A stretch of DNA of 64,000 bases from Variovorax sp. IB41 (lineage in GTDB: Bacteria; Pseudomonadota; Gammaproteobacteria; Burkholderiales; Burkholderiaceae_C), in assembly GCF_016405905.1 (NCBI RefSeq), contig NZ_JAEFCB010000001.1, positions 806,001-870,000 of the forward strand, in the 5' to 3' direction. Position 1 is the first letter of the stretch. Each line of letters opens with the position of its first letter. Under the pieces are notes generated by a model that worked only from the letters and a program-made list of their open reading frames with translations, was not told where the DNA came from and did no database searches. Shown here in pieces: positions 43,379 to 57,249 of this stretch. Made by a program: the position numbers and the translations under genes.

Positions 43379-45538
43379 TCACCGTCGCGCGACCGGTGTG
43401 GCGCTGTCCGACGGAGAACTGTCGCTCGTTCCAGCGGAGTTGCTCGCCGTCACGGTGTAGTAGTAGGTGGTGCCGTTGACCACGGAGGTGTCCGTGTAGC
43501 TGCTGCCAGCAACGCCGGACGCGACGGCCTCGTAGGGCCCGCCGCTGAAGGCGGAGCGGCCGACCGTGTAGCCGGTGGCCCCGAAGGACGCCTGCCAGCG
43601 CAGCGGCACGGCGCCATCGCCCGGCGAGGCCAGCAGCATGGCGGGCGCCGCGGGGACGACGCTCGGCGCACCGCCGTCGCCACCTGTGATCTGCACATTG
43701 CTGAAGACGCTGTTGTTCAGCTTGCCCGTGACCGACGAGACCACCAATCCAACATAGACCGTGTCGGGAACGGGGGCGTCGATGCGGCCGACATCGGTGG
43801 CGGCCCAATTGGTGCCGTCGGGAGAAACGTAGCCGGTGATGATGTTCCCGATGCGCTCGAGCTTCACCCAGTGAGTGGGCCCGGAGCTCGCAACCTTGTT
43901 CGCGTAGTTGGAGCCCCCGTACACCGCCAGTTTCGTCATGTTCTGCAAGACTTCACTTTTGTAGTTCATCGCCATCCAGGCGCGCGGAGCGCCTGGTTCC
44001 AGGCTTGTGCGCATCATCACGCCCGCCACCGCGGACGGGTGGGTGTTCTCGAGCGACTCGACCTTCGCGACGATGGTGCCGTTGCCGGTGAGCGCCTTGT
44101 AGGCGAAGTGGCAACTGTCGCGTTCGCCCCAGATGTCGTAGCCCGCCCCGGCCACGTTCCATTTGCCGGCGGCGTAGGTGGCCGAGCCGGCCGGGCTGGC
44201 GCCCCCGATGTCGGCACTGCTGAACCCCGAGGTGATCGATGCGGCCGAGGGAATGGGCAGCGCCGGCGGCGGCGCCGCCTTCGACGTGTCGGCGTCCTTC
44301 AGGAACATGAAGCTGGCGCCGTCCACCGGCATCCGAAGGCGCCTCTGCGCGATGAAGGGTGCCTGCAGGCCCTTGCGCAGCACGTAGGCGCCATAGATCT
44401 GTGTCAGCGCCAGGCTCCCGCCATTGGCGCCGTCCCAGCCGTGCCCGGTGACGTCGGTGAGGTAGTAGCGATCGGTCGTGCCGAAAGGAAGCGCCGGCGT
44501 GGGCACGCGCTCGTTCACTCTCGCGAAGTACTCGCCCGCGGCCAAGAGGCGGTTGTCGAAATCGGAATAGATGTCGATGCCTTGGCTCCAGAGCGCCTCG
44601 GCCAGCACGGTCAGCGACTTGAGCTGCCCATAGGCATGCCCCTGGTCGCGCAGCGAGTCGCCCAGCATGCCGATGTCGTTGGAGTTGCGCAGCCCGATAT
44701 GGGCGAGCGTGCGGGTCTGGTAGACGACCCTGTCCAATGTCTCGATGTCGTCGGTGTAGATCGCCATCAGCCCCAGCGCGGCGAGGGACAGCGCGCCCTT
44801 GTTGGCTGCGCCGAACGAGCTTTCGCCGTAGGGGTTCGCCGCCGGCATCAGCACGTCCTTGAAGTACTTCTTGACGACCGCCGTGTCGGCCTCTTTCCAG
44901 CCCGACCAGGTGGTGCGCAGGATTTCTGCGCCGCCCACGAACTGGAGCGCGTAGTCGCCCAGGTCGAGCATCGACTCGCGACCCGAGAACTCCGTGTGGG
45001 TGGTGGCCCACCCGAGCAGGAACTTGCGCGCGTTCACCGCGTACCGCTCGTCACGGGTGAAGTACCACATCAGCGAGAGATTCGATATCGCGACCATGTC
45101 GTTGCGCCAGGCCCAGAGGTTCTCGTCAGGGGCGCGGCTCACCTTCGCGAACGGGCCATACCCTCCGTAGCTGAGCCTGGACATGGGGTTGCCCGCCACT
45201 TGCTTGAAGCCGGACGTCCACGGCTCCCTGCCCTGGTCGATGTATGTCTTGAGCGTCGCGAGATCCGAGAGGGAGACCCCAACGCCCGGGTGCTTGATCA
45301 CGCGGGCCACCGGCGTGTCTGCCGGGGCGGCGGGAATCTCCGGTGTGCCTCCCGTCGCAACGGGCACCGCGGGGGCGCCTCCGGTCGCAACGGGAACCGC
45401 TGGTATCTCTCCTGTCGCAGCGGGGGTCTGCTGCGTGCCGCCCGGCAGGGCAAACCCCTCGCTTCCGCCACCGCAACCCGGGAGCACGACCGAGCCCAAC
45501 ACGAGCAACGCAGCAGCAAAGTTTTTTTTATCGAACAT
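43379..45538 (-). CDS. Alginate lyase-family lipoprotein with C-terminal accessory domains
   Basis: The 719-residue protein starts at ATG 45538 with a lipoprotein signal peptide whose lipobox is LPGC (Cys22). A low-complexity linker with repeated PAVPVATGG units follows. Residues of about 80-400 form an alginate-lyase-type alpha/alpha barrel (NDMVAISNLSLMWYFTRDER, FLLGWATTHTEFSG, NPYGESSFGAANKGALSLAA, GHAYGQLKSLTVLAEALW). Next is a concanavalin/LamG-like domain (YDIWGERDSCHFAY, GVMMRTSLEPGAPRAWMAMN), and the end is a fibronectin type III domain (GYTVGRSAFSGGPYEAV, TYYYTVTASNSAG). It should act on uronate polysaccharides at the cell surface. The upstream site GAGAAGG supports this start. Confidence 0.85.
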   Translation of the reverse strand: MFDKKNFAAALLVLGSVVLPGCGGGSEGFALPGGTQQTPAATGEIPAVPVATGGAPAVPVATGGTPEIPAAPADTPVARVIKHPGVGVSLSDLATLKTYIDQGREPWTSGFKQVAGNPMSRLSYGGYGPFAKVSRAPDENLWAWRNDMVAISNLSLMWYFTRDERYAVNARKFLLGWATTHTEFSGRESMLDLGDYALQFVGGAEILRTTWSGWKEADTAVVKKYFKDVLMPAANPYGESSFGAANKGALSLAALGLMAIYTDDIETLDRVVYQTRTLAHIGLRNSNDIGMLGDSLRDQGHAYGQLKSLTVLAEALWSQGIDIYSDFDNRLLAAGEYFARVNERVPTPALPFGTTDRYYLTDVTGHGWDGANGGSLALTQIYGAYVLRKGLQAPFIAQRRLRMPVDGASFMFLKDADTSKAAPPPALPIPSAASITSGFSSADIGGASPAGSATYAAGKWNVAGAGYDIWGERDSCHFAYKALTGNGTIVAKVESLENTHPSAVAGVMMRTSLEPGAPRAWMAMNYKSEVLQNMTKLAVYGGSNYANKVASSGPTHWVKLERIGNIITGYVSPDGTNWAATDVGRIDAPVPDTVYVGLVVSSVTGKLNNSVFSNVQITGGDGGAPSVVPAAPAMLLASPGDGAVPLRWQASFGATGYTVGRSAFSGGPYEAVASGVAGSSYTDTSVVNGTTYYYTVTASNSAGTSDSSPSDSATPVARR

Positions 45539-46276
45539 GGAAGCCTTCTCGGCGAGTGCATGGAAAGTCGCGAAGCCCGCTATGGCGCCGCAAGCTTTTT
45601 TCGAGGTGTTGATTTCAGCGATGAGCCTGCGATCCGCATCGGAGGCTTTTCGGCGCGCGAGGCGGGCCAATCCTGGCACCCGTCCAAGAGGGAAATATGA
45701 GCACCGAAGTATCGATTTCCATCGAATGTGAATCCGCCTTCTTTGCGGGCCATGGCTCAGCTGGGGACAAGGTTAAGCCTTTGGTTTTCTATTGAAGTAG
45801 GACTGCATAGATGAGGTGCGCCGCCCCGTGTTGTACCGGGCGCTGCGATCAAGAGGCCACCCCTTGAGACGAGGCGACAGATGGGACGACCCCTCCCACC
45901 GAATCAACAGTTTCACATATGGCAACAAAATAGCAGGCACCGGATTGCACTGAAAAATGAGTGGCTGAATTTCATTTTTGGCGCAATGGCTGCCCTCGCG
46001 CGATGCTGGAGGCGCACGAGGAACCGGATCGCTCGACGGGCTCTCAGCCGAAACGATTTATCGGGAGCGGACTCAAGGCGGGCGCGTGTTTCATGCGGGG
46101 CGGCATAGGCCTGGTGCCGAAGCGACACCTTCCACGGCTCGCGCGCTCAACCAGTTGGCGACATCGGCGTAAAGACGCCTTGGAACGGAACCGGAATTTG
46201 AGTTGGAGCTGGGCGGCTAGTCGGGCAGCCTTGCCGACTGGCTGCAGCCCCGCATGGGAGATGGGAGCTGGAGCGT
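45539..46276. other. Long intergenic region between alginate lyase and tRNA-Gly
   Basis: About 740 bases without a supported gene. The part next to the lyase should hold its promoter. Several open frames at 45881-46270 have no family resemblance and no ribosome binding site; one runs on through the tRNA and gives the well-known false peptide VKGIEPSYEAWEAAVLPLN. Confidence 0.4.
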
Positions 46277-46350
46277 TGGAGCGGGTGAAGGGAATCGAAC
46301 CCTCGTATGAAGCTTGGGAAGCTGCCGTTCTGCCATTGAACTACACCCGC
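46277..46350 (-). tRNA. tRNA-Gly (CCC)
   Basis: The minus-strand 74-nt sequence folds as a tRNA: acceptor stem GCGGGTG pairing with CACCCGC, the T-arm containing GGTTCGATTCC, and anticodon loop TTCCCAA, giving anticodon CCC. The terminal CCA is encoded (46277-46279). It decodes GGG. Confidence 0.95.
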
Positions 46351-46488
46351 ATTGGCAACCCGTTGAATTCAGACGGGTTGCAGACCCAAGCGCGCGATTC
46401 TACAGAGGAATCACGGGCGCTCTGCGCCGGGCGTCGCCGCTGCGCGGGGCGGCCCGCATCACTTTGCGCATATCGAAGCACGTTTTTG

Positions 46489-46500
46489 TTCGTTAACGAA
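46489..46500. promoter_or_regulatory. 12-bp palindrome upstream of the GntR-led operon
   Basis: The perfect palindrome TTCGTTAACGAA lies 57 bp upstream of the GntR start. UTRA-type GntR regulators often bind short palindromes near their own promoters, so this is a candidate operator. A shorter GTCATGAC palindrome near 46539 is another. Confidence 0.4.
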
Positions 46501-46557
46501 AGAAGCACCGCTGCCTAGCATCCGGCCTCATTCAACCGGTCATGACAGGTCAGCCGC

Positions 46558-47328
46558 ATGTCTTTCGCCAGGGCGCTTGAGCCCATCGCCTTTTCACCCG
46601 TTCCGCTCTACACACAGGTGCGCGAGACGCTGCGCGAGCGCATCCTCGATGGCACCTACGCGCCGCATGCGCAGTTGCCCTCCGAGAGCGAGATGGTCGC
46701 GCTCTTCAAGGTCAGCCGCATCACGGTGCGCCAGGCGCTCAGCGACCTGCAGCGCGAGAACCTGATCTTCAAGATCCCGGGCAAGGGCACCTTCGTCGCC
46801 AAGCCCAAGGCATTCCAGCAACTGGGCCAGCTCGAAGGTTTTGCCGAATCGATGGGCCGCATGGGCTACGAGATCCGCAACCAGGTCACCAGCCACAAGA
46901 CCGTGCCCGCCTCGCCGCGCGTGGCGCAGCGCCTGGGGCTGGCCGAGGGCACGCCGGTCGCGCAGATCAAGCGCGTGCGGCATCTGAACCGCGCCCCGGT
47001 GTCCTACGAGGTGACCTACCTGCCCCACGCCATCGGCGAGCGGCTGCGGCAGGCGGACCTTGCGGGGCGCGACATCTTCCTCATCCTGGAGAACGACTAC
47101 GGCATCGCGCTCGGCCACGCCGACCTGCAGATCGACGCGATGCTCGCCGACGAACTCCTCGCCCGCTCGCTGAGCGTGCCCGAAGGCACCGCCGTGCTGC
47201 GCGTGGAGCGCCTCACGCACACGGCCGAGGGCGCGCCGCTGGATTTCGAAGACCTTTATTTCCGCGGCGATGCGTTTCAGCATCGCCTTCGCATCGCGCG
47301 CAGCCACCCCACGAAGGCCCACCCATGA
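46558..47328 (+). CDS. GntR-family regulator with UTRA domain (HutC subfamily)
   Basis: The 256-residue regulator has a winged helix (PLYTQVRETLRERILDGTY, SESEMVALFKVSRITVRQAL, GKGTFVAKPK) and a UTRA ligand-binding domain (GLAEGTPVAQIKRVRHLN, SYEVTYLPHAIGERL, PLDFEDLYFRGDAFQHRLRI). Its stop overlaps the ATG of the AprA-like gene by four bases (ATGA), so it is the first gene and likely autoregulator of an eight-gene operon ending at 53747. Confidence 0.92.
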   Translation: MSFARALEPIAFSPVPLYTQVRETLRERILDGTYAPHAQLPSESEMVALFKVSRITVRQALSDLQRENLIFKIPGKGTFVAKPKAFQQLGQLEGFAESMGRMGYEIRNQVTSHKTVPASPRVAQRLGLAEGTPVAQIKRVRHLNRAPVSYEVTYLPHAIGERLRQADLAGRDIFLILENDYGIALGHADLQIDAMLADELLARSLSVPEGTAVLRVERLTHTAEGAPLDFEDLYFRGDAFQHRLRIARSHPTKAHP

Positions 47329-49061
47329 ACATCCTCACCCGCACCGTAGACGTGCTGGTCATCGGCGGCGGCACGGCCGGCCCGATGGCGGCCGTGAAGG
47401 CCAAAGAAGCCAACCCCAAGCTCGAAGTGCTGCTGCTCGAGAAAGCCAACGTCAAGCGCAGCGGTGCCATCTCGATGGGGATGGACGGCCTGAACAACGC
47501 GGTCGTCCCCGGCTTCGCCACGCCCGAGCAGTACGTCAAGGAGATCACCACCGCCAACGACGGCATCGTCAACCAGAAGACGGTGATGGCCTATGCGCGC
47601 AACAGCTATTCGATGATCGAGGAGCTCGACCGCTGGGGCGTGAAGTTCGAGAAGGACGAGACCGGCGACTACGCGATGCGCAAGGTCCACCACATGGGCA
47701 CCTACGTGCTGCCGATGCCCGAGGGCCACAACATCAAGAACGTGCTGTACCGGCGCCTGAAGCGCACGCGCGTGGAGATGTCGCAGCGCCTGGTGGTCAC
47801 GCGCCTCTTGACGGCGGCCGACGGCAGCATCGCGGGCGCGATGGCCTTCGACTGCCGCACGGCCGAGTTCCACGTGATCCGCGCCAAGTCGGTGGTGCTG
47901 GCCACGGGCGCGGCCGGACGGCTGGGCCTGCCTGCGTCGGGCTACCTCTTCGGCACCTACGAGAACCCGACCAACGCGGGCGACGGCTACAGCATGGCCT
48001 ACCACGCGGGCGCGGAGCTCTCGGGCATCGAGTGCTTCCAGATCAACCCGCTCATCAAAGACTACAACGGCCCCGCCTGCGCCTACGTGACCGGCCCCTT
48101 CGGCGGCCACACCACCAACAACAAGGGCGAGCGCTTCATCGAGTGCGACTACTGGAGCGGCCAGATGATGATGGAGTTCTACAACGAGCTGCAGGGCGGC
48201 AACGGCCCCGTCTTCCTCAAGCTGAGCCACCTGGCCGAGGAGACCATCGCCACCATCGAGCAGATCCTGCACACCAACGAGCGCCCCAGCCGCGGGCGCT
48301 TTCACGCCGGGCGCGGCACCGACTACCGGGAGCAGATGGTGGAGATGCACATCTCCGAGATCGGCCTGTGCAGCGGCCACTCGGCCTCGGGCGTGTGGGT
48401 GGACGAGCACGCACGCACCACGGTGCCGGGCCTGCACGCGGCGGGCGACCTGGCCTGCGTGCCCCACAACTACATGCTCGGCGCCTTCGTCTACGGCCGC
48501 CTCGCGGGCGAGAGCGCCGCGCGGCATTGCGCGGAGACCGAGCTGCCCGCGCTCGATGAAGAACAGGTCGCACGCGAGCACGCCCGCGTCAGCGCCCCGC
48601 TCCTTCGCAGCGGCGGCCTGCCCCCCGCGCAAGTCGAATACAAGCTGCGCCGCATGGTCAACGACTACCTGCAGCCGCCCAAGGTCACGCGCAAGATGGA
48701 GATCGGCCTCTCGCGCTTCGAGCAGATCCACGAAGACCTCGAACAGCTCGCCGCGCCCGGCCCGCACGAGCTGATGCGCGCGATGGAGGTGCACGCGATC
48801 CGCGACTGCGCCGAGATGGCCGCGCGCGCCTCGCTCTACCGCACCGAGAGCCGCTGGGGCCTGTACCACCACCGCGTGGACTTTCCCGAACGCAACGACC
48901 GCGACTGGTTCTGCCACACGCAATTGCAGAAGCAAGGCGACGCGATGGTGAGCTTCAAGCGCCCGGTCGACGCGTACATCGTGCCGCTCGACGCGCACGA
49001 GATGTCGGCCTACCAGCACCTGCGCGTGCCCGCCGCCGCGCGCGAGCCGGTCGCGGCCTGA
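47325..49061 (+). CDS. AprA-like / fumarate-reductase-type flavoprotein
   Basis: The 578-residue cytoplasmic FAD protein has the dinucleotide motif VLVIGGGTAGPMAAVKAKE near the N-terminus, a second FAD element (SVVLATGAAGRLGLP) and a C-terminal FAD contact (GLHAAGDLACVPHNYMLGAF). Segments CFQINPLIKDYNGPACAYV and YWSGQMM are more like adenylylsulfate reductase alpha (AprA) and relatives than like fumarate reductase. The next gene encodes a two-cluster ferredoxin of AprB type, so the pair probably forms an AprAB-like heterodimer. No sat or dsr genes are here, so dissimilatory sulfur oxidation is not implied. The substrate is unknown. Confidence 0.82.
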   Translation: MNILTRTVDVLVIGGGTAGPMAAVKAKEANPKLEVLLLEKANVKRSGAISMGMDGLNNAVVPGFATPEQYVKEITTANDGIVNQKTVMAYARNSYSMIEELDRWGVKFEKDETGDYAMRKVHHMGTYVLPMPEGHNIKNVLYRRLKRTRVEMSQRLVVTRLLTAADGSIAGAMAFDCRTAEFHVIRAKSVVLATGAAGRLGLPASGYLFGTYENPTNAGDGYSMAYHAGAELSGIECFQINPLIKDYNGPACAYVTGPFGGHTTNNKGERFIECDYWSGQMMMEFYNELQGGNGPVFLKLSHLAEETIATIEQILHTNERPSRGRFHAGRGTDYREQMVEMHISEIGLCSGHSASGVWVDEHARTTVPGLHAAGDLACVPHNYMLGAFVYGRLAGESAARHCAETELPALDEEQVAREHARVSAPLLRSGGLPPAQVEYKLRRMVNDYLQPPKVTRKMEIGLSRFEQIHEDLEQLAAPGPHELMRAMEVHAIRDCAEMAARASLYRTESRWGLYHHRVDFPERNDRDWFCHTQLQKQGDAMVSFKRPVDAYIVPLDAHEMSAYQHLRVPAAAREPVAA

Positions 49062-49093
49062 CGCCTGCACCACGACAAAAAAGAGAACCCCAC

Positions 49094-49327
49094 ATGCCCA
49101 TCGCCTTCAACCCCACCAGCGTGCCCGTGCGCATCGACGACGACAAGTGCATCGCCCACAAGGGCTGCACCGTCTGCGTGGACGTGTGCCCGCTCGACGT
49201 GCTCGCCATCGACCTCAGCAAGGGCAAGGCCTACATGAAGTTCGACGAGTGCTGGTACTGCATGCCCTGCGAGAAGGACTGCCCCACCGGCGCGGTCACC
49301 GTCGACATCCCCTACCTGCTGCGCTGA
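49094..49327 (+). CDS. AprB-like 2x[4Fe-4S] ferredoxin
   Basis: The 77-residue ferredoxin has eight Cys in two cluster motifs: C19, C25, C28, C32 (CIAHKGCTVCVDVCP) and C53, C56, C59, C63 (CWYCMPCEKDCP). The second motif with its Trp and Tyr matches the AprB pattern CWECYSC. It should carry electrons to or from the FAD of the preceding AprA-like protein. It lacks the longer C-terminal tail of true AprB. Confidence 0.88.
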   Translation: MPIAFNPTSVPVRIDDDKCIAHKGCTVCVDVCPLDVLAIDLSKGKAYMKFDECWYCMPCEKDCPTGAVTVDIPYLLR

Positions 49328-49362
49328 GCCGCCGCGCCCGCATTTCAACCCGGAGCATCACG

Positions 49363-50775
49363 ATGAAGACCCAGAGAATCCTGTCCCTGTGGGGCGCAAC
49401 CCTCGGCCTGCTGCTGACCCTTCCCGCAGCGCAGGCCGAGACCATCCGCATCGCCATCGGCACGCAGGACACCACCATCAACTGCGCCACCGGCGGCCTC
49501 CTGATCCGCAAGCTCAAGCTGCTGGAAAAATACCTGCCCCGCACCGGCAAGTACAAGGACGCGCAGTACCAGATCGAGTGGAAGAACTTCACCTCCGGCG
49601 CGCCGCTCACCAACGAGATGGTCGCGGGCAAGCTCGATCTGGGCTCGATGGCCGACTTTCCGGGCAGCTTCAACGGCGCGGCCTTCCAGAAGGCGGGGCG
49701 CAAGAGCATCTTCATCACTGTGCTCTCGGGCAGCACCACGGGCAGCGGCAACGGCATCGTCGTGCCGAAGGATTCGAAGGTGCAGTCGCTCGCCGAATTG
49801 AAGGGCAAGACCATCTCCGTGCCCTTCGCCTCGACCTCGCACGGCATGCTGCTGCGCGCCATTCAGGCGCAGGGCTGGGACCCGCTGAAGGACGTGAACA
49901 TCACCACCCAGGCGCCCGAGGTGGCCGGCCCCGCGCTGCAGGCCGGCAAGGTCGAGGCGCATGCGGACTTCGTGCCCTTCGCCGAGCTCTTTCCGTACCG
50001 CGGCTTCGCCCGCAAGATCTACGACGGGTCGCAGGCCAACGCGCCCACCTTCCACGGCAGCCTGGTCGACGAGGAGTACGCGAAGAAGTACCCCGAGGTC
50101 GTCACCGCGTACCTGCGCGCCGCACTGGAGGCCGACCGCCTCGTGGCCGCCGAGCCCGAGAAGTACAGCGAGCTGATCGCCAAGGTCACGGGCATCGAGG
50201 CGGAGGTCAACTACCTCTTTCACGGCCCGCTCGGCCTGCAGACGCGCGACCTGAGCTGGAAGCCCGAGTACCGCCAGGCGGTGAAGACATCGCTCGACAC
50301 GCTGCGCCTCTTGAAGCGCACCGACAACGACATCGACGCCAACGCCTTCGTGCAGGACGGCTACATCCGCACTGCGTTCACGGAGGCGGGCATGGACTAC
50401 GACAAGCAACTGAAGAACTACGCCCGCGCCCCGCTGGTGGCCAAGGACGCATCGACCGGCAAGCCCATCACCGACGTGAGCCGCGTGGCCCAGGTGTGGG
50501 TCGCAGGCGAGCCGCTGGTGCGCCACTACGCCTCGCCCGAGAACGCGCTGGGCGACCTGCAGAAGCTGGAGAAGGCCGGCAAGAAGGCGCGCGTGGTCTA
50601 TGCGCAGGACCGCAACAGCGGCAACAAGCTGCTGGCCGCCGACGCGTGGTTCGTGCTCGGCGCCAAGGGCGAAGTCGATGCCTTCCTGCTCAAGGACCAG
50701 GCCGAGGGCTGGGCCGCCAAGCACGGCGGCAAGGTGCAGGACTTCGCGGGCGTGCGCGCCGCACTCGCGGGCTGA
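49363..50775 (+). CDS. ABC substrate-binding protein (NitT/TauT type) with NosL-like C-terminal domain
   Basis: The 470-residue secreted protein has a signal peptide cleaved near AAQAE (residue 25). Residues of about 26-340 form an NMT1/SsuA-like binding domain (IRIAIGTQDTTINCATGGL, EMVAGKLDLGSMADFPGSFN, GKTISVPFASTSHGMLLRAI). It is about 130 residues longer than normal family members. The extra C-terminal part (about 360-468) resembles NosL, the Cu(I)-binding accessory protein of nitrous-oxide reductase: ADAWFVLGAKGEVDAF followed by AEGWAAKHGGKVQDF. The NosL metal-binding Cys/Met motif at the start of that domain is absent. The permease and ATPase follow in the same operon. Confidence 0.8.
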   Translation: MKTQRILSLWGATLGLLLTLPAAQAETIRIAIGTQDTTINCATGGLLIRKLKLLEKYLPRTGKYKDAQYQIEWKNFTSGAPLTNEMVAGKLDLGSMADFPGSFNGAAFQKAGRKSIFITVLSGSTTGSGNGIVVPKDSKVQSLAELKGKTISVPFASTSHGMLLRAIQAQGWDPLKDVNITTQAPEVAGPALQAGKVEAHADFVPFAELFPYRGFARKIYDGSQANAPTFHGSLVDEEYAKKYPEVVTAYLRAALEADRLVAAEPEKYSELIAKVTGIEAEVNYLFHGPLGLQTRDLSWKPEYRQAVKTSLDTLRLLKRTDNDIDANAFVQDGYIRTAFTEAGMDYDKQLKNYARAPLVAKDASTGKPITDVSRVAQVWVAGEPLVRHYASPENALGDLQKLEKAGKKARVVYAQDRNSGNKLLAADAWFVLGAKGEVDAFLLKDQAEGWAAKHGGKVQDFAGVRAALAG

Positions 50776-50803
50776 CGCCCTCCTCTGTTCAGAGAACGTC
50801 ACC

Positions 50804-51601
50804 ATGGCCAGCTCCTTGAACGACAAGCTGCCGCGCGCCGCGTGGCGCATCGCCGCGCTGCTCCTGTGTGTGCTCGCATGGCACCTGGCCACGCGCGAGC
50901 GCATGAACCTGGGCTTCATCACCTTCCAGAACGTGCCGCCGCCGCGCGAGGTGGCCGAATCGGCGTGGTCGCTGGTGCAGTCGCCGCTGGTGCTGCAGCA
51001 CCTGTCGGCGAGCTTGCGCCGCGTGTTCATCGGCTTCGGCCTTGCGGCCGTGGCCGGCGTGGCGCTGGGCCTGGCGATCGGCCGCGCCCGCTGGGCCGAA
51101 GACACGCTGCTGCCGCCGCTCGAAGTGCTGCGGCCGATTCCCGCCGTCGCGTGGATTCCGCTGGCCATCCTGATGTTTCCGTCGTCGGAGGCGTCGATGG
51201 TCTTCATCACCTTCGTCGGCGCGCTCTTTCCCGTGCTGCTCAACACCGTGCACGGCGTGGAGGCGGTGGATGCGCGCCTGGTCGCCTCGGCGCGCAGCCT
51301 GGGCGCGGGGCGCCTTGCGGTGTTTCGCGAGGTGATCCTGCCGGGCGCGCTGCCCAGCGTCGTTACGGGCCTTGCCATCGGCATGGGCACCGCGTGGTTC
51401 TGCCTGGTCACGGCCGAGATGATCTCGGGCCAGTTCGGCATCGGCTACTACACGTGGATGTCGTACACGATCCAGAACTACGCGGACATCGTGGTCGGCA
51501 TGCTCTTCATCGGCGTGCTCGGCATGGGCAGCAGCGCGCTGGTGCGCCGGGTCGGCCAGTCGCTGATGCCCTGGCGCGCCGTGCAGGAGCAACGCGCATG
51601 A
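50804..51601 (+). CDS. ABC transporter permease, NitT/TauT type
   Basis: The 265-residue protein has about six membrane segments and the family EAA loop (VASARSLGAGRLAVFREVIL followed by PGALPSVVTGLAIG). It starts at ATG 50804 and its stop overlaps the ATPase start by four bases. It should form the membrane part of an importer with the preceding binding protein. Confidence 0.9.
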   Translation: MASSLNDKLPRAAWRIAALLLCVLAWHLATRERMNLGFITFQNVPPPREVAESAWSLVQSPLVLQHLSASLRRVFIGFGLAAVAGVALGLAIGRARWAEDTLLPPLEVLRPIPAVAWIPLAILMFPSSEASMVFITFVGALFPVLLNTVHGVEAVDARLVASARSLGAGRLAVFREVILPGALPSVVTGLAIGMGTAWFCLVTAEMISGQFGIGYYTWMSYTIQNYADIVVGMLFIGVLGMGSSALVRRVGQSLMPWRAVQEQRA

Positions 51602-52446
51602 AGGCCGACGTGCAGACCGGCCGCATCGCCATCGACGATTTGCGCGTGCGCCTCGGCCAGGGCGCGCAGGCCTTCGATGCGGTGCAGGACATCACGCTGC
51701 ATGTGGAGCCCGGCGAGTTCGTCTGCCTGCTCGGGCCTTCGGGCTGCGGCAAGTCGACGCTGCTGGGCGCGCTCGCGGGGCACCTGACACCTGCGAGCGG
51801 CGCGATCCGCGTGGACGGCGAGCCGGTGCGCGGACCGCACCCGGACCGCGGCCTCGTCTTCCAGCACCACACGCTCTTCCCCTGGAAGAAGGTGCTCGAC
51901 AACGTCGCCTTCGGCCTGAAGATGCAGGGCGTCGGCCGCCGCGAGCGCCATGCGCGCGCGCACGAGATGCTGCGGCTCGTGGGCCTGGACGACTTCGCGG
52001 GCTTCTACCCCTCGCAGCTCTCGGGCGGCATGCAGCAGCGCGCGGAGATCGCGCGGGTGCTCATCAACCACCCGCGCGTGATGCTGATGGACGAGCCCTT
52101 CGGCGCGCTCGATGCGCAGACGCGGCTGATGATGCAGCGCCAGCTGCTCGACGCGTGGGCGCGCGTGCGCACCACCATCGTCTTCATCACGCACGACATC
52201 GACGAGGCGCTGTTCCTCGGCGACCGCGTGCTCGTGATGGGGCCGCGGCCGGGGCGCATCGTGGCCGAGTTCGCGCTCGACTTCGCGCGGCCGCGCGATC
52301 CGTCGCTGGTCACCTCTTCCGAATTCACCGCGCTCAAGCGGCACTGCCTGCAGTTGCTGCATCCGCACGCGGCCGCCAGCGCGCCGCTGGAACGCCTCAC
52401 GCCGCTGGGCGCGCCCACCGCTGCGCAACTGCGCTTTGCCATCTAG
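51598..52446 (+). CDS. ABC transporter ATPase, NitT/TauT type
   Basis: The 282-residue ATPase has Walker A (GPSGCGKST), Q-loop (LVFQHHTLFPWKKV), signature (LSGGMQQRAEIA), Walker B (VMLMDEPFGALD) and His switch (FITHDIDEALFLGDR). It is coupled to the permease by an ATGA overlap. The last 40 residues extend beyond the usual SsuB/TauB end without a recognised domain. Confidence 0.92.
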   Translation: MKADVQTGRIAIDDLRVRLGQGAQAFDAVQDITLHVEPGEFVCLLGPSGCGKSTLLGALAGHLTPASGAIRVDGEPVRGPHPDRGLVFQHHTLFPWKKVLDNVAFGLKMQGVGRRERHARAHEMLRLVGLDDFAGFYPSQLSGGMQQRAEIARVLINHPRVMLMDEPFGALDAQTRLMMQRQLLDAWARVRTTIVFITHDIDEALFLGDRVLVMGPRPGRIVAEFALDFARPRDPSLVTSSEFTALKRHCLQLLHPHAAASAPLERLTPLGAPTAAQLRFAI

Positions 52447-52453
52447 AAAAAGA

Positions 52454-53452
52454 ATGAACCCCTCGACCCTCGACGACCCCGAACTGCAGGCCATCGCCGA
52501 ACGGCTGGCCTCGCCCGACGCCGAAGTGCGCCGCATCGCCGTGATGGACCTGGGCGACCTCTCCGACGAGGCGCACACGCCGCTGCTGGTCGCGGCCCTG
52601 CGCGACGACACGCCGGCTGTGCGCGCCGCCGCCGCATTGGCGCTGGAGACCATGGAGAACCAGTCCGCCGTCGAAGGACTGGCAGAGGCGCTCGACGATG
52701 CCGATGCGCAGGTGCGCGAAGCCGCCGCCCACAGCCTGGCCGAGCTGAAAGAGCCCGCATCGGCTGCGTGGCTGCTGCCGCATGCGGGCACCGGGCCGGC
52801 GCGAGTGCGCGCCGCCGTGCTGCGTGCATTGCGCGAACTGCGCGTGCCTGCGAGCGCCGCGCCCGCGCTGGCGGTGCTGCAGGAGCCGCGCGCCGCGCAG
52901 GACACCGCCGATGCCATCGCCCTGCGCCGCGAAGCGATCGGCGTGCTCGGCTATCTGAAGCACGCGGCCGCGCTGCCTGCGCTGGCCGCGCTCGCCGCCT
53001 CCGACCCCGTGGACGAAGTGCGCCGCGCGGCCGTGGGCGCCCTCGCCTTCGCGGCCGGCGACACCGATGCGCGCGAGGCACTGGAAACCGCGCTGCGCGA
53101 TGCGAGCTGGCAGGTGCGCGAGGAAGCTGCCACGGCGCTTGGCAAGCTGCAGCAGCCCGCCGCGACCGCCGCGCTGCTGGTGGCGCTGGACGATCCTTAC
53201 TGGCAGGTGCGCCTGCGTGCGGCCCGCAGCCTGGGGCGGCTGCGCAGTGCCGAGAGCGTCACGCCGCTGCTCGTTGCGCTGGGCCACAGCATCAGCAACC
53301 TGCGCAAGGAAGCCGCGCTGGCGCTGGGCGAGATCGGCGATGCAGCGGCGCTGCCTGCGCTCGAACTTGCTGCGGACGATGCCGATCCCGAAGTGCGCAA
53401 GTCCGCCCGGCTGGCGATCGTGCAGATCGGGAAGGCGGGCCATGGCGCCTGA
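52454..53452 (+). CDS. HEAT-repeat protein (PBS-lyase type repeats)
   Basis: The 332-residue protein consists of about ten HEAT repeats of 30-32 residues with the pattern 'D.D..VR..A..ALG......A...L..AL' (examples: DDADAQVREAAAHSLAELK, DDPYWQVRLRAARSLGRLR). There is no signal peptide. Such repeats make protein-protein scaffolds; no catalytic motif is visible. It starts 7 bases after the ATPase stop and overlaps the next gene by 11 bases. It may hold or mature the AprAB-like complex. Confidence 0.85.
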   Translation: MNPSTLDDPELQAIAERLASPDAEVRRIAVMDLGDLSDEAHTPLLVAALRDDTPAVRAAAALALETMENQSAVEGLAEALDDADAQVREAAAHSLAELKEPASAAWLLPHAGTGPARVRAAVLRALRELRVPASAAPALAVLQEPRAAQDTADAIALRREAIGVLGYLKHAAALPALAALAASDPVDEVRRAAVGALAFAAGDTDAREALETALRDASWQVREEAATALGKLQQPAATAALLVALDDPYWQVRLRAARSLGRLRSAESVTPLLVALGHSISNLRKEAALALGEIGDAAALPALELAADDADPEVRKSARLAIVQIGKAGHGA

Positions 53453-53747
53453 GTCCATCGTCGACCATCGCGCGCGGGCTGCGCTGGAGTTTTGCTGGGG
53501 CGATGGGGAGCGGTATCTGGCCACGTACCAGCTGCTGCGGGACAGTTGCCCTTGTGCGGATTGCAAGGCGCTGCGTGCGGCTGGTCGCGGTGGCGATGCA
53601 GTCGATGTGCAACTCGCGGACATACAGCCGGTGGGGGCTTATGGCGTGCAGTTCGTGTTCAGCGATGGGCACGACCGGGGGATTTTTCCTTGGGGGTTTT
53701 TGAAGGAGCTGCTGGAGGAAGATGTGCAATCGGCCGTGACACCATGA
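53442..53747 (+). CDS. DUF971 (GBBH-like N-terminal domain) protein
   Basis: The 101-residue protein matches the DUF971 pattern: ALEFCWGDGERYLATYQLLR, then the Cys cluster C36-x-C38-x2-C41 (SCPCADCKAL), VQLADIQPVGAYGVQFVF, and SDGHDRGIFPWGFLKEL. DUF971 domains are also found fused to Mrp/HCF101-type iron-sulfur carriers, so a role in Fe-S handling is plausible. The gene overlaps the HEAT gene by 11 bases and closes the operon. Confidence 0.87.
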   Translation: MAPESIVDHRARAALEFCWGDGERYLATYQLLRDSCPCADCKALRAAGRGGDAVDVQLADIQPVGAYGVQFVFSDGHDRGIFPWGFLKELLEEDVQSAVTP

Positions 53748-53927
53748 CCACTTCATAGCCTTTTTGCTCCAAGGCCGTCGCTATTCCATTCTTCTGATTT
53801 CTGTGACTATTGCAGGCCGGCTTCCAAAGTCTACTTTGGCCGAACACCGATATACGGTGCAAATGGAATTGATTTACTGATAACACCCCTGACTCACGCG
53901 TGAACTAGTCTTTATGCCATTTTTTGG

Positions 53928-54983
53928 CTAAATCCTCGTTAGTATTCCACTACCAGGAGTGCGTAGCGCTTTAAGCCAACGAGCAAGTGAGGCTCTTTCT
54001 TCAAACCTCACTGGATATGACCGTGCACTACACACCCGTTGAGATCCAGGAGCAATGCGAGATGACGTAACTATTAATCCGGATTCTGCTCCTTCGTGAA
54101 CCACATCGGCCCAAAGAGCCTTGACAATCAGCTGCTCAATTGAAGATTTTTGCCTCTTGCATTGAATGAGGATTGTTGGAGGATCGCTATTTCGGTCAAT
54201 TTCTGGCTTCCACGCCCGGATATCCACCCCCCCATCTCCACGACCAGGCCCCATTTCCACGTCGTATCCAGCACGCGAAAAAAATTCGCCGACCAAGCCT
54301 TCGAACTTTCGCCAGTTCATCGCGTCAATGGCTGAAAAATTCGCCCCTAAGTAGTCAAGAAGCCGTTGATCGATAAAACGTCCATCAGATGCATCTAATG
54401 ATTCACTTGAAAATAGTTCTTTTAATTCTATTGTATTCGTCCAATCTATTCTTCTGAAGCGGTCGAACTCGCATAAGGCGCCGATTCGATAGAGGTACAT
54501 CATATCGATGATCTCTCTTGCCAGTTTTTGCCCCAAATGACCCCACCTTTCTTCTGTATTTCTAAGAAATTGACTCAACTCCAATCCGGGCTTTGGTAAT
54601 AGCCAATCACTCTCCCCTGCGAGTAAGTCAAAAATTCCATCGATCACTGGCTGACGAATCGCATCATTTTTGGATGAAAACCGAAAGAATGTTGGGGCAT
54701 GATAGGCGACTGGATGGGGCAGCACTCCCAATCGATGAAGAATTTTCTGAAATGACTCCAGCAATTCGTCGTGATGTATGGACACATGAGTGGCTTCAGC
54801 GCTGGAAAGTTGGGTGCGCAGGTTGCTTTTGATGTCGGTATGCGATATCAACTCATCAAGCGACAAAGCCAGTCCGGATTTGAATCCAATTTGTTCGCTG
54901 ATGTATGCAACAAAGAGGTCGCGAGGCATAAGAAAGCCGCTCATAAGATTTTTTTGGGATTCATTTTTATAATTGACTGCCAT
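53928..54983 (-). CDS. Mrr-type restriction endonuclease-like protein
   Basis: The protein has about 351 residues from ATG 54983; a GTG at 55031 and an ATG at 54944 are alternatives and none has a strong ribosome binding site. The first 200 residues match nothing I recognise. The last 130 form an Mrr_cat nuclease domain: WRKFEGLVGEFFSRAGYDVE, then catalytic Asp in GRGDGGVDIRAW and the QxK motif in ILIQCKRQK. It should cut DNA. Base composition is clearly lower in GC than the neighbours. It is 166 bp downstream of the SMC-like ATPase gene in the same orientation, which suggests a two-component defence module. Confidence 0.8.
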   Translation of the reverse strand: MAVNYKNESQKNLMSGFLMPRDLFVAYISEQIGFKSGLALSLDELISHTDIKSNLRTQLSSAEATHVSIHHDELLESFQKILHRLGVLPHPVAYHAPTFFRFSSKNDAIRQPVIDGIFDLLAGESDWLLPKPGLELSQFLRNTEERWGHLGQKLAREIIDMMYLYRIGALCEFDRFRRIDWTNTIELKELFSSESLDASDGRFIDQRLLDYLGANFSAIDAMNWRKFEGLVGEFFSRAGYDVEMGPGRGDGGVDIRAWKPEIDRNSDPPTILIQCKRQKSSIEQLIVKALWADVVHEGAESGLIVTSSRIAPGSQRVCSARSYPVRFEERASLARWLKALRTPGSGILTRI

Positions 54984-55149
54984 TTCAAAATGGCAAAAAT
55001 AAACGGCGGCTCGAATCTTGTGTTGATCCACCTATCGGGAAGGGGCGCGGCCTATTTCGAACTAAATTTCTGCTCCTGGTCGGCTGCAGCCATATCGGTG
55101 CATCAATTATGCTACTGCGTGCCGATGCAGCCTTTCGGCGAGATCTCCA

Positions 55150-57249
55150 CTACTGGATCGTGGCAACGTATTTGTCGCATTCCTTGATAACAAAGTGCGG
55201 CACCAATTGATATTCACGCGGGTTGAGTTGATAAATATAGTTGTTCTCGATGTGAAAGGCCTCGTTGATAAACTTCAAGATGACATTGGACTTGACCTTG
55301 TCTTCTTCATGATCAAAAAGAATGCGGTAGAGGTGCAGCTTCTCGTAGTTGCTGGTTGAAGCGTGGTAGAGCTGCTTCATTTGCTGTTTATCAGTGACCA
55401 GACTAAGAGCTGCCGCGTAACTGAAGTCGGGGATTTTTTCGACGACAGCCTCACATCCTGCTTTGATTTCTTCTTCGGTCATATCTCGCAGTTCTCCATC
55501 GTCGAATTTCTTTGGAGCGGGACGCTTGTGAAAGACGTTTGACAGAATGTCAAACGCATCGCCCTTTTGCTGGGTAACTTCCAGCAAGCGGCGAAGGTAG
55601 ACAAGTCGGTTTAAAAGCGGGATCGGCTGGGTAATATTTTCATGATTGATGTCAATGAAAGTCTTAACCTGCGCCCGCGTAACGATCTTCTCGGAAAGAA
55701 TGCCATCCTTGTTTTCAAGGAAGGCGACGGCTGGTTTGGTGAATCGGTCTGCATGGTGAACGACCATGTCCACCACGGGGTCCAGATCATGAGTCAGCAA
55801 AAGCACGGTTTTCCCGCGCAGTGACTGGGCCCCCCGGAAGAGCATTTCGATGATGGCGTACTTCTTGTTCTTATCGAACGATGAAATTGGGTCGTCCAGT
55901 ACGATCAATTTGGGATCGGACTTGACCGCATCGAACATGAAAAGGACCAAGGCGATGGCATTTCTTTCGCCAAAACTCAGGTGATCCCGCACATTGCTGA
56001 CCGATTGCTCGGGAAATTCTAAATGCGTGAGCAGTAGCTTGTGCCTGGAGTCCGCACCTGCTCGCAGTTCAACTCTATAAGAGTAGCCCGCATTCGCGAG
56101 GAAGTCATTAATGTGCGTGCTGTAGGCTTTGACTAGACGTTCAATCGTAGTCCGTTGCTTAATAATGGCGCCCTGCAATGCTCCCGCCTTTTCGATCAAA
56201 GGCTGAATACTCTCGTTGATGATCTGGACCTTGACTGCGGTTTCTTCCGATTGCAGATGGTAATAAAGTCCTAAATCAATCTTGTATGATCCTAATTCGT
56301 CAATAATTTTTGTGACATCTTTGAGCGAACTGAAGCCGATGGCTCGGTTTTGCTTGAACTTCCCGGCTAAGCGTTCAATTTGCGTTTTAACCTCATTCAG
56401 AAAGGCGACTTGCTCGTCCGTATACTTTTCCGTATTTTTGACGAATTCTGAGATCTTGTCTTTTGTGGCCGCTGAGAAGTATTTGTTAAGGCGGTCGAAA
56501 GTGCTGACGATCTTGTTGAGCGTTTCAATGGATTTCGGGTCGTAGGCTTGAGCGACCTTGTCTATTGTTTCGCGTTTGGTCTTGATGTCGCTGGTGCAGT
56601 ACGGGCAATCTGAGCCGAAGGGGAGGTAGCTTGCTCCCTCTTGCTGCCACCGAATCCACTTGTATCCAGATTCGTGGCGGATGTACGGCGTATATGCTTC
56701 CAGTCCGGCAGGGATGTTTGCAACCTTGTTTCCATCCTTAAAGGCCTTTGCGATGTTGCCGGCTGCGTGGATTCCGGTCTTAACCGGCCTGCCGAAACTG
56801 CTGCTGATCTCCTCAAAGTCGGCAAGAAGGATATCGACTTCGGGGTCCGTCGAAATCGAACTCTTGAAGTCTTGAATCAGTTCCTCGATCTTCTGCAGTC
56901 CATCGTCATAGTCCTGCGTCTTGATAAAGATCTCGAAGCTGCCTTTCAGCAAGTCATCTTGCTGAAAAACAAAGCTGTTGATGTAATCTTCGTTGAAGAT
57001 CCTCGTGGCCGCGATGTCGTCTATACCCGTGATGCTGGGGACTGCCGTGGCATTTGCGCGGTGTTTGAACGGGATCAGGTTAGCGAGTTTCTTTGCGGCA
57101 CCATTTTTTTCTTCGACTGCGTATGCTATTGCCTTTGCGATGGTGCTTTTGCCTGTGCCGTTGATCGCGTATTTGATGTTGAGTACGCCCTCGGCGATCT
57201 CGATTTGACCGCGTTCGATGTTATTGCAATGCTCTAGTTGGATCTGCAT
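55150..57249 (-). CDS. SMC/RecF-like AAA ATPase with CxxC hook (AAA_13/RloC-like)
   Basis: The 699-residue ATPase has Walker A at the N-terminus (YAINGTGKSTIAKAI), a long coiled-coil middle with a central CPYC motif like a zinc hook, an ABC signature (HLSFGERNAIALVLFMF) and Walker B (KLIVLDDPISSFDKNKKY) with a His switch (LLTHDLDP). This layout is typical of the AAA_13 group that includes RloC and PrrC anticodon nucleases. The C-terminal part has R553-x3-E557 and H574 (YLRRLLEV, SNVFHKR), resembling the Arg-Glu-His triad of those enzymes, but this is not proven. Base composition is lower in GC than neighbours. GGAGG precedes the ATG. Confidence 0.82.
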   Translation of the reverse strand: MQIQLEHCNNIERGQIEIAEGVLNIKYAINGTGKSTIAKAIAYAVEEKNGAAKKLANLIPFKHRANATAVPSITGIDDIAATRIFNEDYINSFVFQQDDLLKGSFEIFIKTQDYDDGLQKIEELIQDFKSSISTDPEVDILLADFEEISSSFGRPVKTGIHAAGNIAKAFKDGNKVANIPAGLEAYTPYIRHESGYKWIRWQQEGASYLPFGSDCPYCTSDIKTKRETIDKVAQAYDPKSIETLNKIVSTFDRLNKYFSAATKDKISEFVKNTEKYTDEQVAFLNEVKTQIERLAGKFKQNRAIGFSSLKDVTKIIDELGSYKIDLGLYYHLQSEETAVKVQIINESIQPLIEKAGALQGAIIKQRTTIERLVKAYSTHINDFLANAGYSYRVELRAGADSRHKLLLTHLEFPEQSVSNVRDHLSFGERNAIALVLFMFDAVKSDPKLIVLDDPISSFDKNKKYAIIEMLFRGAQSLRGKTVLLLTHDLDPVVDMVVHHADRFTKPAVAFLENKDGILSEKIVTRAQVKTFIDINHENITQPIPLLNRLVYLRRLLEVTQQKGDAFDILSNVFHKRPAPKKFDDGELRDMTEEEIKAGCEAVVEKIPDFSYAAALSLVTDKQQMKQLYHASTSNYEKLHLYRILFDHEEDKVKSNVILKFINEAFHIENNYIYQLNPREYQLVPHFVIKECDKYVATIQ

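Follow-up and report, generated by a model that had tools for sequence, protein, structure and literature searches.

Variovorax sp. IB41 carries, within the 64,000-nucleotide stretch of contig NZ_JAEFCB010000001.1 analyzed here (the window), an eight-gene operon at positions 46558–53747 that we tentatively interpret as a single import-and-reduce unit, in which a small compound taken up by the cell, probably one containing sulfur, would be reduced in the cytoplasm with electrons from ferredoxin. We put the probability of this reading at roughly 45%. The eight genes are co-directional on the plus strand, with intergenic gaps of 7–35 bases and three overlapping junctions of 4, 4 and 11 bases, and encode in order a GntR-type regulator, a flavoprotein related to AprA, a small ferredoxin, the binding protein, permease and ATPase of an ATP-binding cassette (ABC) importer, a HEAT-repeat protein and a DUF971 protein (Table 1). 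An earlier note made from the sequence had described the same set; its coordinates and strand agree with ours to the base, and its families all hold in the Pfam and NCBIfam profile searches from which our assignments are drawn.

The co-occurrence of these genes is far beyond chance, as judged from two samples of loci and 59 control regions. Sample A consists of the 80 nearest loci, which are near relatives of one another and some of which are cut by contig ends; sample B consists of 37 operon regions picked for the flavoprotein and not by closeness. In sample B, all 37 regions have the flavoprotein and the ferredoxin and 36 have the HEAT protein; each of the three importer components is present in 34, DUF971 in 33 and GntR in 27. 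The controls yielded no ferredoxin, HEAT, binding protein or DUF971 match, one permease, two GntR and four ATPase matches. Sample A gave similar counts (flavoprotein 80/80, ferredoxin and HEAT 79 each, permease and ATPase 72 each, GntR 71, binding protein 67 and DUF971 54), and an identical eight-gene order is found on an Acinetobacter baumannii plasmid. The module is mostly kept in distantly related bacteria. The search for conserved gene order proposed in the earlier note, which held that genes failing to co-occur would refute its reading, thus returned tight co-occurrence in both samples.

The flavoprotein is a member of NF006131/PRK08275 (1076.1 bits, cut-off 587) and fails the AprA model TIGR02061 (176.8 bits, cut-off 641.75). 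The NF006131 family is conserved and carries no substrate assignment, and the model name is uninformative on substrate; proteins of this type are misleadingly called ‘fumarate reductase/succinate dehydrogenase flavoprotein subunit’. In a tree of 24 rows, eleven members form one clade (99/98) beside AprA and 3′-phosphoadenosine 5′-phosphosulfate (PAPS) reductase and apart from AsfA, SdhA and NadB, with the exact branching order uncertain in view of long branches flagged by the tree program. In a joint alignment of 11 copies with six AprA sequences, Arg265 and Arg317 of AprA (A. fulgidus numbering), which we take to be active-site residues, correspond to Leu243 and Met281, and these two residues are invariant in 32/32 family members. 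AprA Trp234 aligns with Tyr212, while Asn74 (Asn57) and His398 (His352) are kept. The residues that we assume to be catalytic in SdhA and its succinate dehydrogenase/fumarate reductase (SDH/FRD) relatives are His242, Arg286, His354 and Arg399. At these sites the flavoprotein has Asn241, no Arg within 274–290 or 380–385, and only His352 kept, and it thereby fails the sequence test for a fumarate reductase or succinate dehydrogenase. With the AprA arginines replaced and a single residue of the SDH/FRD set retained, the substrate pocket may be more neutral than that of either AprA or FRD. Judged by sequence, then, the flavoprotein falls in a neighboring clade of AprA whose members have lost two of the arginines of the AprA active site. 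The label ‘AprA-like’ stands as regards the relationship and the two-cluster type of ferredoxin, and not as regards AprA proper. The earlier remark that no apr partner is near was right as to AprA, for which a search of the whole genome, covering neither sat nor dsr, gave no match to TIGR02061 at E ≤ 1e-100. A different AprA-like flavoprotein, 30% identical and on a long tree branch, was seen in genome G034 (L176 4202–5887, minus strand), where a ferredoxin match adjoins it (35% identical, L008).

Could the enzyme be a disguised adenosine 5′-phosphosulfate (APS) or PAPS reductase of sulfate assimilation? AprAB (PDB 2fja, 3gyx) and the Methanothermococcus assimilatory PAPS reductase (8a8o) share with the operon a fumarate-reductase-family subunit binding flavin adenine dinucleotide (FAD) and a two-cluster, AprB-like ferredoxin; they fall in the neighboring clade, share the aligned Asn74 (N57) and His398 (H352), and are 25–29% identical to the flavoprotein (three compared). 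The PAPS reductase, however, retains Arg at the AprA 265 and 317 positions, which in our family hold Leu and Met, respectively, and the TIGR02061 score is far below the cut-off. Unlike AprAB, the window operon also has its own importer, HEAT and DUF971 genes, and APS needs no sulfonate-type importer. We regard this identity as very improbable. According to the available portions of PMC10322725, PAPS is bound in the Methanothermococcus enzyme by Ser122, Lys120 and Arg121, and the AprA-type mechanism runs through flavin N5.

Both 4-Cys motifs of the small ferredoxin are present in 119/119 loci with a match (120 searched), so that the flavoprotein has the partner expected of an AprAB-type enzyme. 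A second line of evidence, new here, comes from genes for electron supply. In sample B, the ferredoxin FdxA is encoded in 14/37 regions, a ferredoxin–NADP reductase (FNR) in 10/37 and a large NfnAB-like FAD protein in 10/37; at least one of the three occurs in 21/37 regions and 11/20 genera, versus 0/59 controls (p = 1.6e-11). In 10 loci FdxA is encoded ~1.25 kb downstream of the flavoprotein gene and in the same orientation, and the A. caldus FdxA matches structures of Azotobacter-type 7Fe ferredoxin I. Both subunits of the NADH-dependent ferredoxin:NADP oxidoreductase NfnAB find a match in the large FAD protein, whose N-terminal third contains two short clusters of cysteines. Single-chain NfnAB-like proteins of ~1150–1190 residues with an extra N-terminal part (L136 10574–14035, L082 17070–20642) are encoded next to the operon in sulfur oxidizers and Burkholderiales.

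This linkage points to a ferredoxin-fed reductase. Because genes for ferredoxin and for NAD(P)H:ferredoxin reductases adjoin the operon in relatives, we read the donor genes as a supply of reduced ferredoxin, and the enzyme most likely reduces its substrate. The earlier note had left the choice between reduction and oxidation open; the donor genes favor the former. Passage of electrons from substrate to ferredoxin would be in keeping with the reversibility of APS reductases (PMC10322725, in the portions available) and with the presence of sulfur oxidizers such as Thiobacillus and Halothiobacillus among the hosts, but FNR and the NfnAB-like protein would be makers of reduced ferredoxin, and we consider the oxidative direction distinctly unlikely.

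The HEAT protein is tied to the flavoprotein by gene fusion. It aligns with the C-terminal portion of PRK13800, a flavoprotein–HEAT fusion model, and in Tsukamurella an 893-residue protein of this actinobacterial type combines a flavoprotein of the same family (61% identical) with a HEAT part at residues 618–858, to which the HEAT protein of the window operon, encoded by a gene of its own, is matched. GntR, ferredoxin and importer genes adjoin the Tsukamurella fusion, and no DUF971 match was found at that locus. The CxCxxC motif of DUF971 is present in 79/88 loci with a match. In Nostoc, a gene for an Mrp/ApbC-type iron–sulfur carrier lies near the HEAT gene and the stretch searched has no DUF971 match; nothing else in these data hints that DUF971 may act in cluster maturation. 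A second DUF971 (PF06155) gene in the Variovorax sp. IB41 genome (G000:C22:227004–227258, L001) outscores the operon copy.

Permease, ATPase and NMT1-type binding protein together support the sulfonate/nitrate-type importer proposed earlier. The top structural folds for the binding protein are TauA and SsuA, though only just ahead, and CmpA, NrtA and binders of thiamine precursors share this fold. The protein differs from those of SsuABC and TauABC in its length of 470 residues, in falling short of the SsuA model TIGR01728 (118.4 bits, cut-off 163.5) and in a probable NosL-like C-terminal domain. Pfam NosL (PF05573) was the top match in 6/6 pieces, at 18.1–23.8 bits against a gathering score of 24, and was not in the whole-protein Pfam list at 1e-3; hhalign of the C-terminal part to one NosL gave a probability of 76. 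Matches in a structure search with the whole model were filled by the first domain. A NosL scan of five operon-bearing genomes matched in two, with no match at 0.01 in G027, G029 and G031. The Met of the MGP segment, presumably a copper ligand in the NosL chaperone, falls in a gap when 20 binding proteins are aligned with one NosL. The combination of a TauA/SsuA-type fold with a probable NosL-like domain is a new observation here.

What does this importer deliver? A sulfur compound is weakly favored by the AprA relationship, the TauA/SsuA-type importer and the neighboring genes. At least one of nine sulfur-type markers occurs at 31/80 sample A loci versus 3/59 controls, led by luciferase-like (LLM) monooxygenases (12) and sulfate-binding proteins (11), with the others fewer. 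Individual copies adjoin an NtaA-type monooxygenase and a second SsuA-type importer (Cupriavidus), 3-mercaptopropionate dioxygenase and rhodanese (Paraburkholderia), or metX and O-acetylhomoserine sulfhydrylase (Nostoc).

Several observations weigh against an import-and-reduce unit acting on a sulfur compound. In sample B, sulfur markers occur in 7/37 regions versus 3/59 controls (one-sided p = 0.036, uncorrected and with two of the markers chosen after seeing sample A), in 5/20 genera, and LLM monooxygenases in 0/37. The Leu and Met at the two AprA arginine sites speak against a sulfonate-like group bound in the manner of AprA. The AlphaFold model of the flavoprotein is poor (mean pLDDT, the predicted local distance difference test, of 64.8), precisely where the pocket lies, so that the pocket cannot be read from it. 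A donor gene is present in only 16/80 sample A loci, 16/37 sample B regions have none, and the window operon itself has no FdxA, FNR or NfnAB-like gene, the FdxA relative of this genome (55% identical) lying ~250 kb away on the same contig.

Because the markers are clear in sample A and weak in sample B, a sulfur-containing substrate is a best guess at roughly even odds, and we dropped the stronger notion of a clear sulfur neighborhood given the weak sample B signal. The earlier suggestion of an organosulfur or nitrogen-containing substrate is thereby tilted weakly toward sulfur, with nitrogen kept as a rival. Import and reduction of a nitrogen-containing or metal-linked small molecule would accord with the breadth of the binding-protein fold, with its NosL-like domain, with the replaced arginines and with the GNAT, amidase or allophanate hydrolase genes that adjoin some alphaproteobacterial and Nostoc copies. 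GNAT and amidase genes are not enriched in the marker test on sample B (0/37 and 1/37), and TauA and SsuA as top folds, the AprA relationship and the sulfur-type genes beside many sample A copies all argue the other way, leaving a non-sulfur substrate doubtful. In some copies a GNAT acetyltransferase gene is accompanied by an amidase or M20 aminoacylase gene (L142 16922–19107, L134 21585–23432, L146 20308–24451), an arrangement reminiscent of S-alkylcysteine salvage.

The nearest described plan is asfRABC of soil proteobacteria (Pseudomonas putida S-313; Variovorax, Cupriavidus), which shares a flavoprotein, a ferredoxin and a binding protein with the window operon and, in the available portions of PMC4267179 and PMC2864759, serves aromatic sulfonate use. 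Its regulator is the LysR-type AsfR (PMC4267179), in place of which the window operon has a GntR/UTRA protein. A variant of this plan, in which the flavoprotein and ferredoxin feed an SsuD-like oxygenase encoded elsewhere that desulfonates an imported sulfonate, would explain both the likeness and the LLM monooxygenases at 12/80 sample A loci; these genes are, however, absent from sample B. AsfA of C. metallidurans CH34 is 23–24% identical to the window flavoprotein and falls in a separate clade, both clades being starred, and the CH34 stretches searched yielded neither a HEAT nor a DUF971 match. The placement of this AsfA/AsfB pair, which PMC2864759 names, is inferred, by a calibration of Rmet numbers with six TauD positions in the place of an annotated record: the calibration indicates 923–925 kb, and a flavoprotein–ferredoxin pair at ~928–930 kb fits. 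Another candidate pair at 793 kb was dropped for its resemblance to a tricarballylate-dehydrogenase pair. AsfA relatives (E ≤ 1e-30) occur in 11/24 other Variovorax genomes and are absent from that of IB41, while G020 has both systems. We rejected identity with asfRABC itself, given the different clade of CH34 AsfA, and find the oxygenase-feeding variant fairly unlikely.

No experimental study of this system was found in the literature searched. The earlier statement that no function had been described holds for experimental work in that literature, but one prediction exists: in the available portions of PMC12375680 (2025), ‘ferredoxin/APS reductase/GntR’ with a sulfonate-type importer is listed as plasmid cargo, including on pTcM1 of Fervidacidithiobacillus caldus, and two operons of acidophile plasmids are predicted to act in organosulfonate uptake and assimilation. 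The pTcM1 module (L136) appears to be the same as ours. It shares GntR, the ‘APS reductase’ (flavoprotein 67% identical), the ferredoxin and the sulfonate-type ABC importer, adds FdxA, an NfnAB-like gene and a porin, and differs in having the importer on the opposite strand and an insertion sequence (IS) element next to the binding protein gene. Its role, as given in those portions, is a prediction only.

In the import-and-reduce scheme, the binding protein would capture the substrate and the permease and ATPase would bring it into the cell. Electrons would pass from NAD(P)H through FNR or an NfnAB-like enzyme to a ferredoxin such as FdxA, and the small ferredoxin subunit would hand them to the FAD, which would then reduce the substrate. 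The most likely reaction would be the cleavage or reduction of a bond to sulfur, making sulfite or sulfide available. The HEAT protein may dock or hold the complex, DUF971 may aid its maturation, and GntR would repress the operon until substrate or product releases it.

A more specific form of this scheme, which we consider unlikely but worth stating, is oxygen-independent desulfurization in aerobes: the AprA-related enzyme, with a presumably more neutral pocket, would use low-potential electrons from FdxA, charged by FNR or a bifurcating NfnAB-like enzyme, to cleave an S–C or S–heteroatom bond of an imported organosulfur compound reductively. If true, this route would differ from those of asf and of the oxygenases SsuD and TauD, and reductive release of sulfur would add an oxygen-independent use of organic sulfur, which makes up ~95% of soil sulfur (PMC4267179, in the portions available). 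If the sulfur reading is true, the operon would represent a testable new way of obtaining sulfur; with a dedicated importer, a regulator with a predicted operator and a supply of ferredoxin, the system lends itself to direct tests of what the substrate is.

The GntR control supposed earlier is favored by a palindrome, newly recognized here, that precedes gntR as a putative operator and makes local control likely. Its core, GTYATVAC, lies upstream of gntR in 56/72 regions and is lacking in 16/72. At ≤1 mismatch to ACYTGTYATRACARGT, the IB41 genome has a single site, the one before the operon (46535–46550). The same scan of 13 genomes found a site in 12, at the operon in 11, and none in G029; a reversed control pattern matched in 2/13. 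The sites in G365 adjoin another GntR gene, and in G020 the operon site is joined by another operator-like sequence at some distance from the operon (G020:C1:2236571–2236586). A Crp/Fnr-type regulator is encoded close to the operon in six alphaproteobacterial copies.

The distribution of the operon is patchy. NF006131 proteins above cut-off were found in 21/398 genomes of a phylum sample, 5/369 of a class sample and 22/399 of an order sample, the host counted each time, and a high-identity flavoprotein in 1/24 other Variovorax genomes (G020). The closest flavoprotein matches with organism names are from Variovorax. A flavoprotein search gave at least 6552 matches at E ≤ 1e-20 among 7999 scored candidates, which may include more distant relatives. 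DNA similarity to four Variovorax or Acidovorax loci ends near the operon borders, spanning about 46.46–53.72 kb in three of them and 46277–53774, with one gap, in the fourth. Because the operon is patchy and this similarity stops near its ends, it has probably moved horizontally. Directly upstream lies a tRNA-Gly (CCC) gene (46277–46350, minus strand); similarity to Variovorax sp. 770b2 (L046) begins exactly at the end of this gene, and the operon may have entered there.

Table 1. Features of the operon, in window coordinates
Feature	Position	Strand	Basis
Predicted GntR operator, palindrome ACCGGTCATGACAGGT	46535..46550	.	Cross-locus consensus TAACYTGTCATRACARGTTA
GntR/UTRA-family regulator, 256 aa	46558..47328	+	Pfam GntR and UTRA
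AprA-related FAD flavoprotein, 578 aa, NF006131/PRK08275	47325..49061	+	Model score, tree, residue comparison; Pfam FAD_binding_2/Succ_DH_flav_C
Small AprB-like ferredoxin, 77 aa, two 4-Cys motifs, 2x[4Fe-4S] predicted	49094..49327	+	Pfam Fer4_7
Periplasmic binding protein, 470 aa, TauA/SsuA-fold domain at residues ~25–352	49363..50775	+	NMT1-type; fold search
Probable NosL-like C-terminal domain of binding protein, residues 365–470	50455..50772	+	Sub-cut-off Pfam NosL matches
ABC importer permease, 265 aa, SaoP/NrtB/SsuC type, below all cut-offs	50804..51601	+	BPD_transp_1
ABC importer ATPase, 282 aa, TauB/SaoA/NrtC type, below all cut-offs	51598..52446	+	ABC_tran
HEAT-repeat protein, 332 aa	52454..53452	+	Pfam HEAT_2; PRK13800 C-terminal part
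DUF971/GBBH-like_N protein, 101 aa, CxCxxC motif	53442..53747	+	Pfam PF06155

The host genome measures 6.87 Mb. Directly downstream of the operon, on the minus strand (53928–57249), are genes for an Mrr-type nuclease (Mrr_cat) and an AAA_13 ATPase, the latter matching the candidate defense family PDC-S06 over nearly its full length (872 bits). A protein with alginate-lyase-like and DUF1349 domains is encoded at 43379–45679 on the minus strand.

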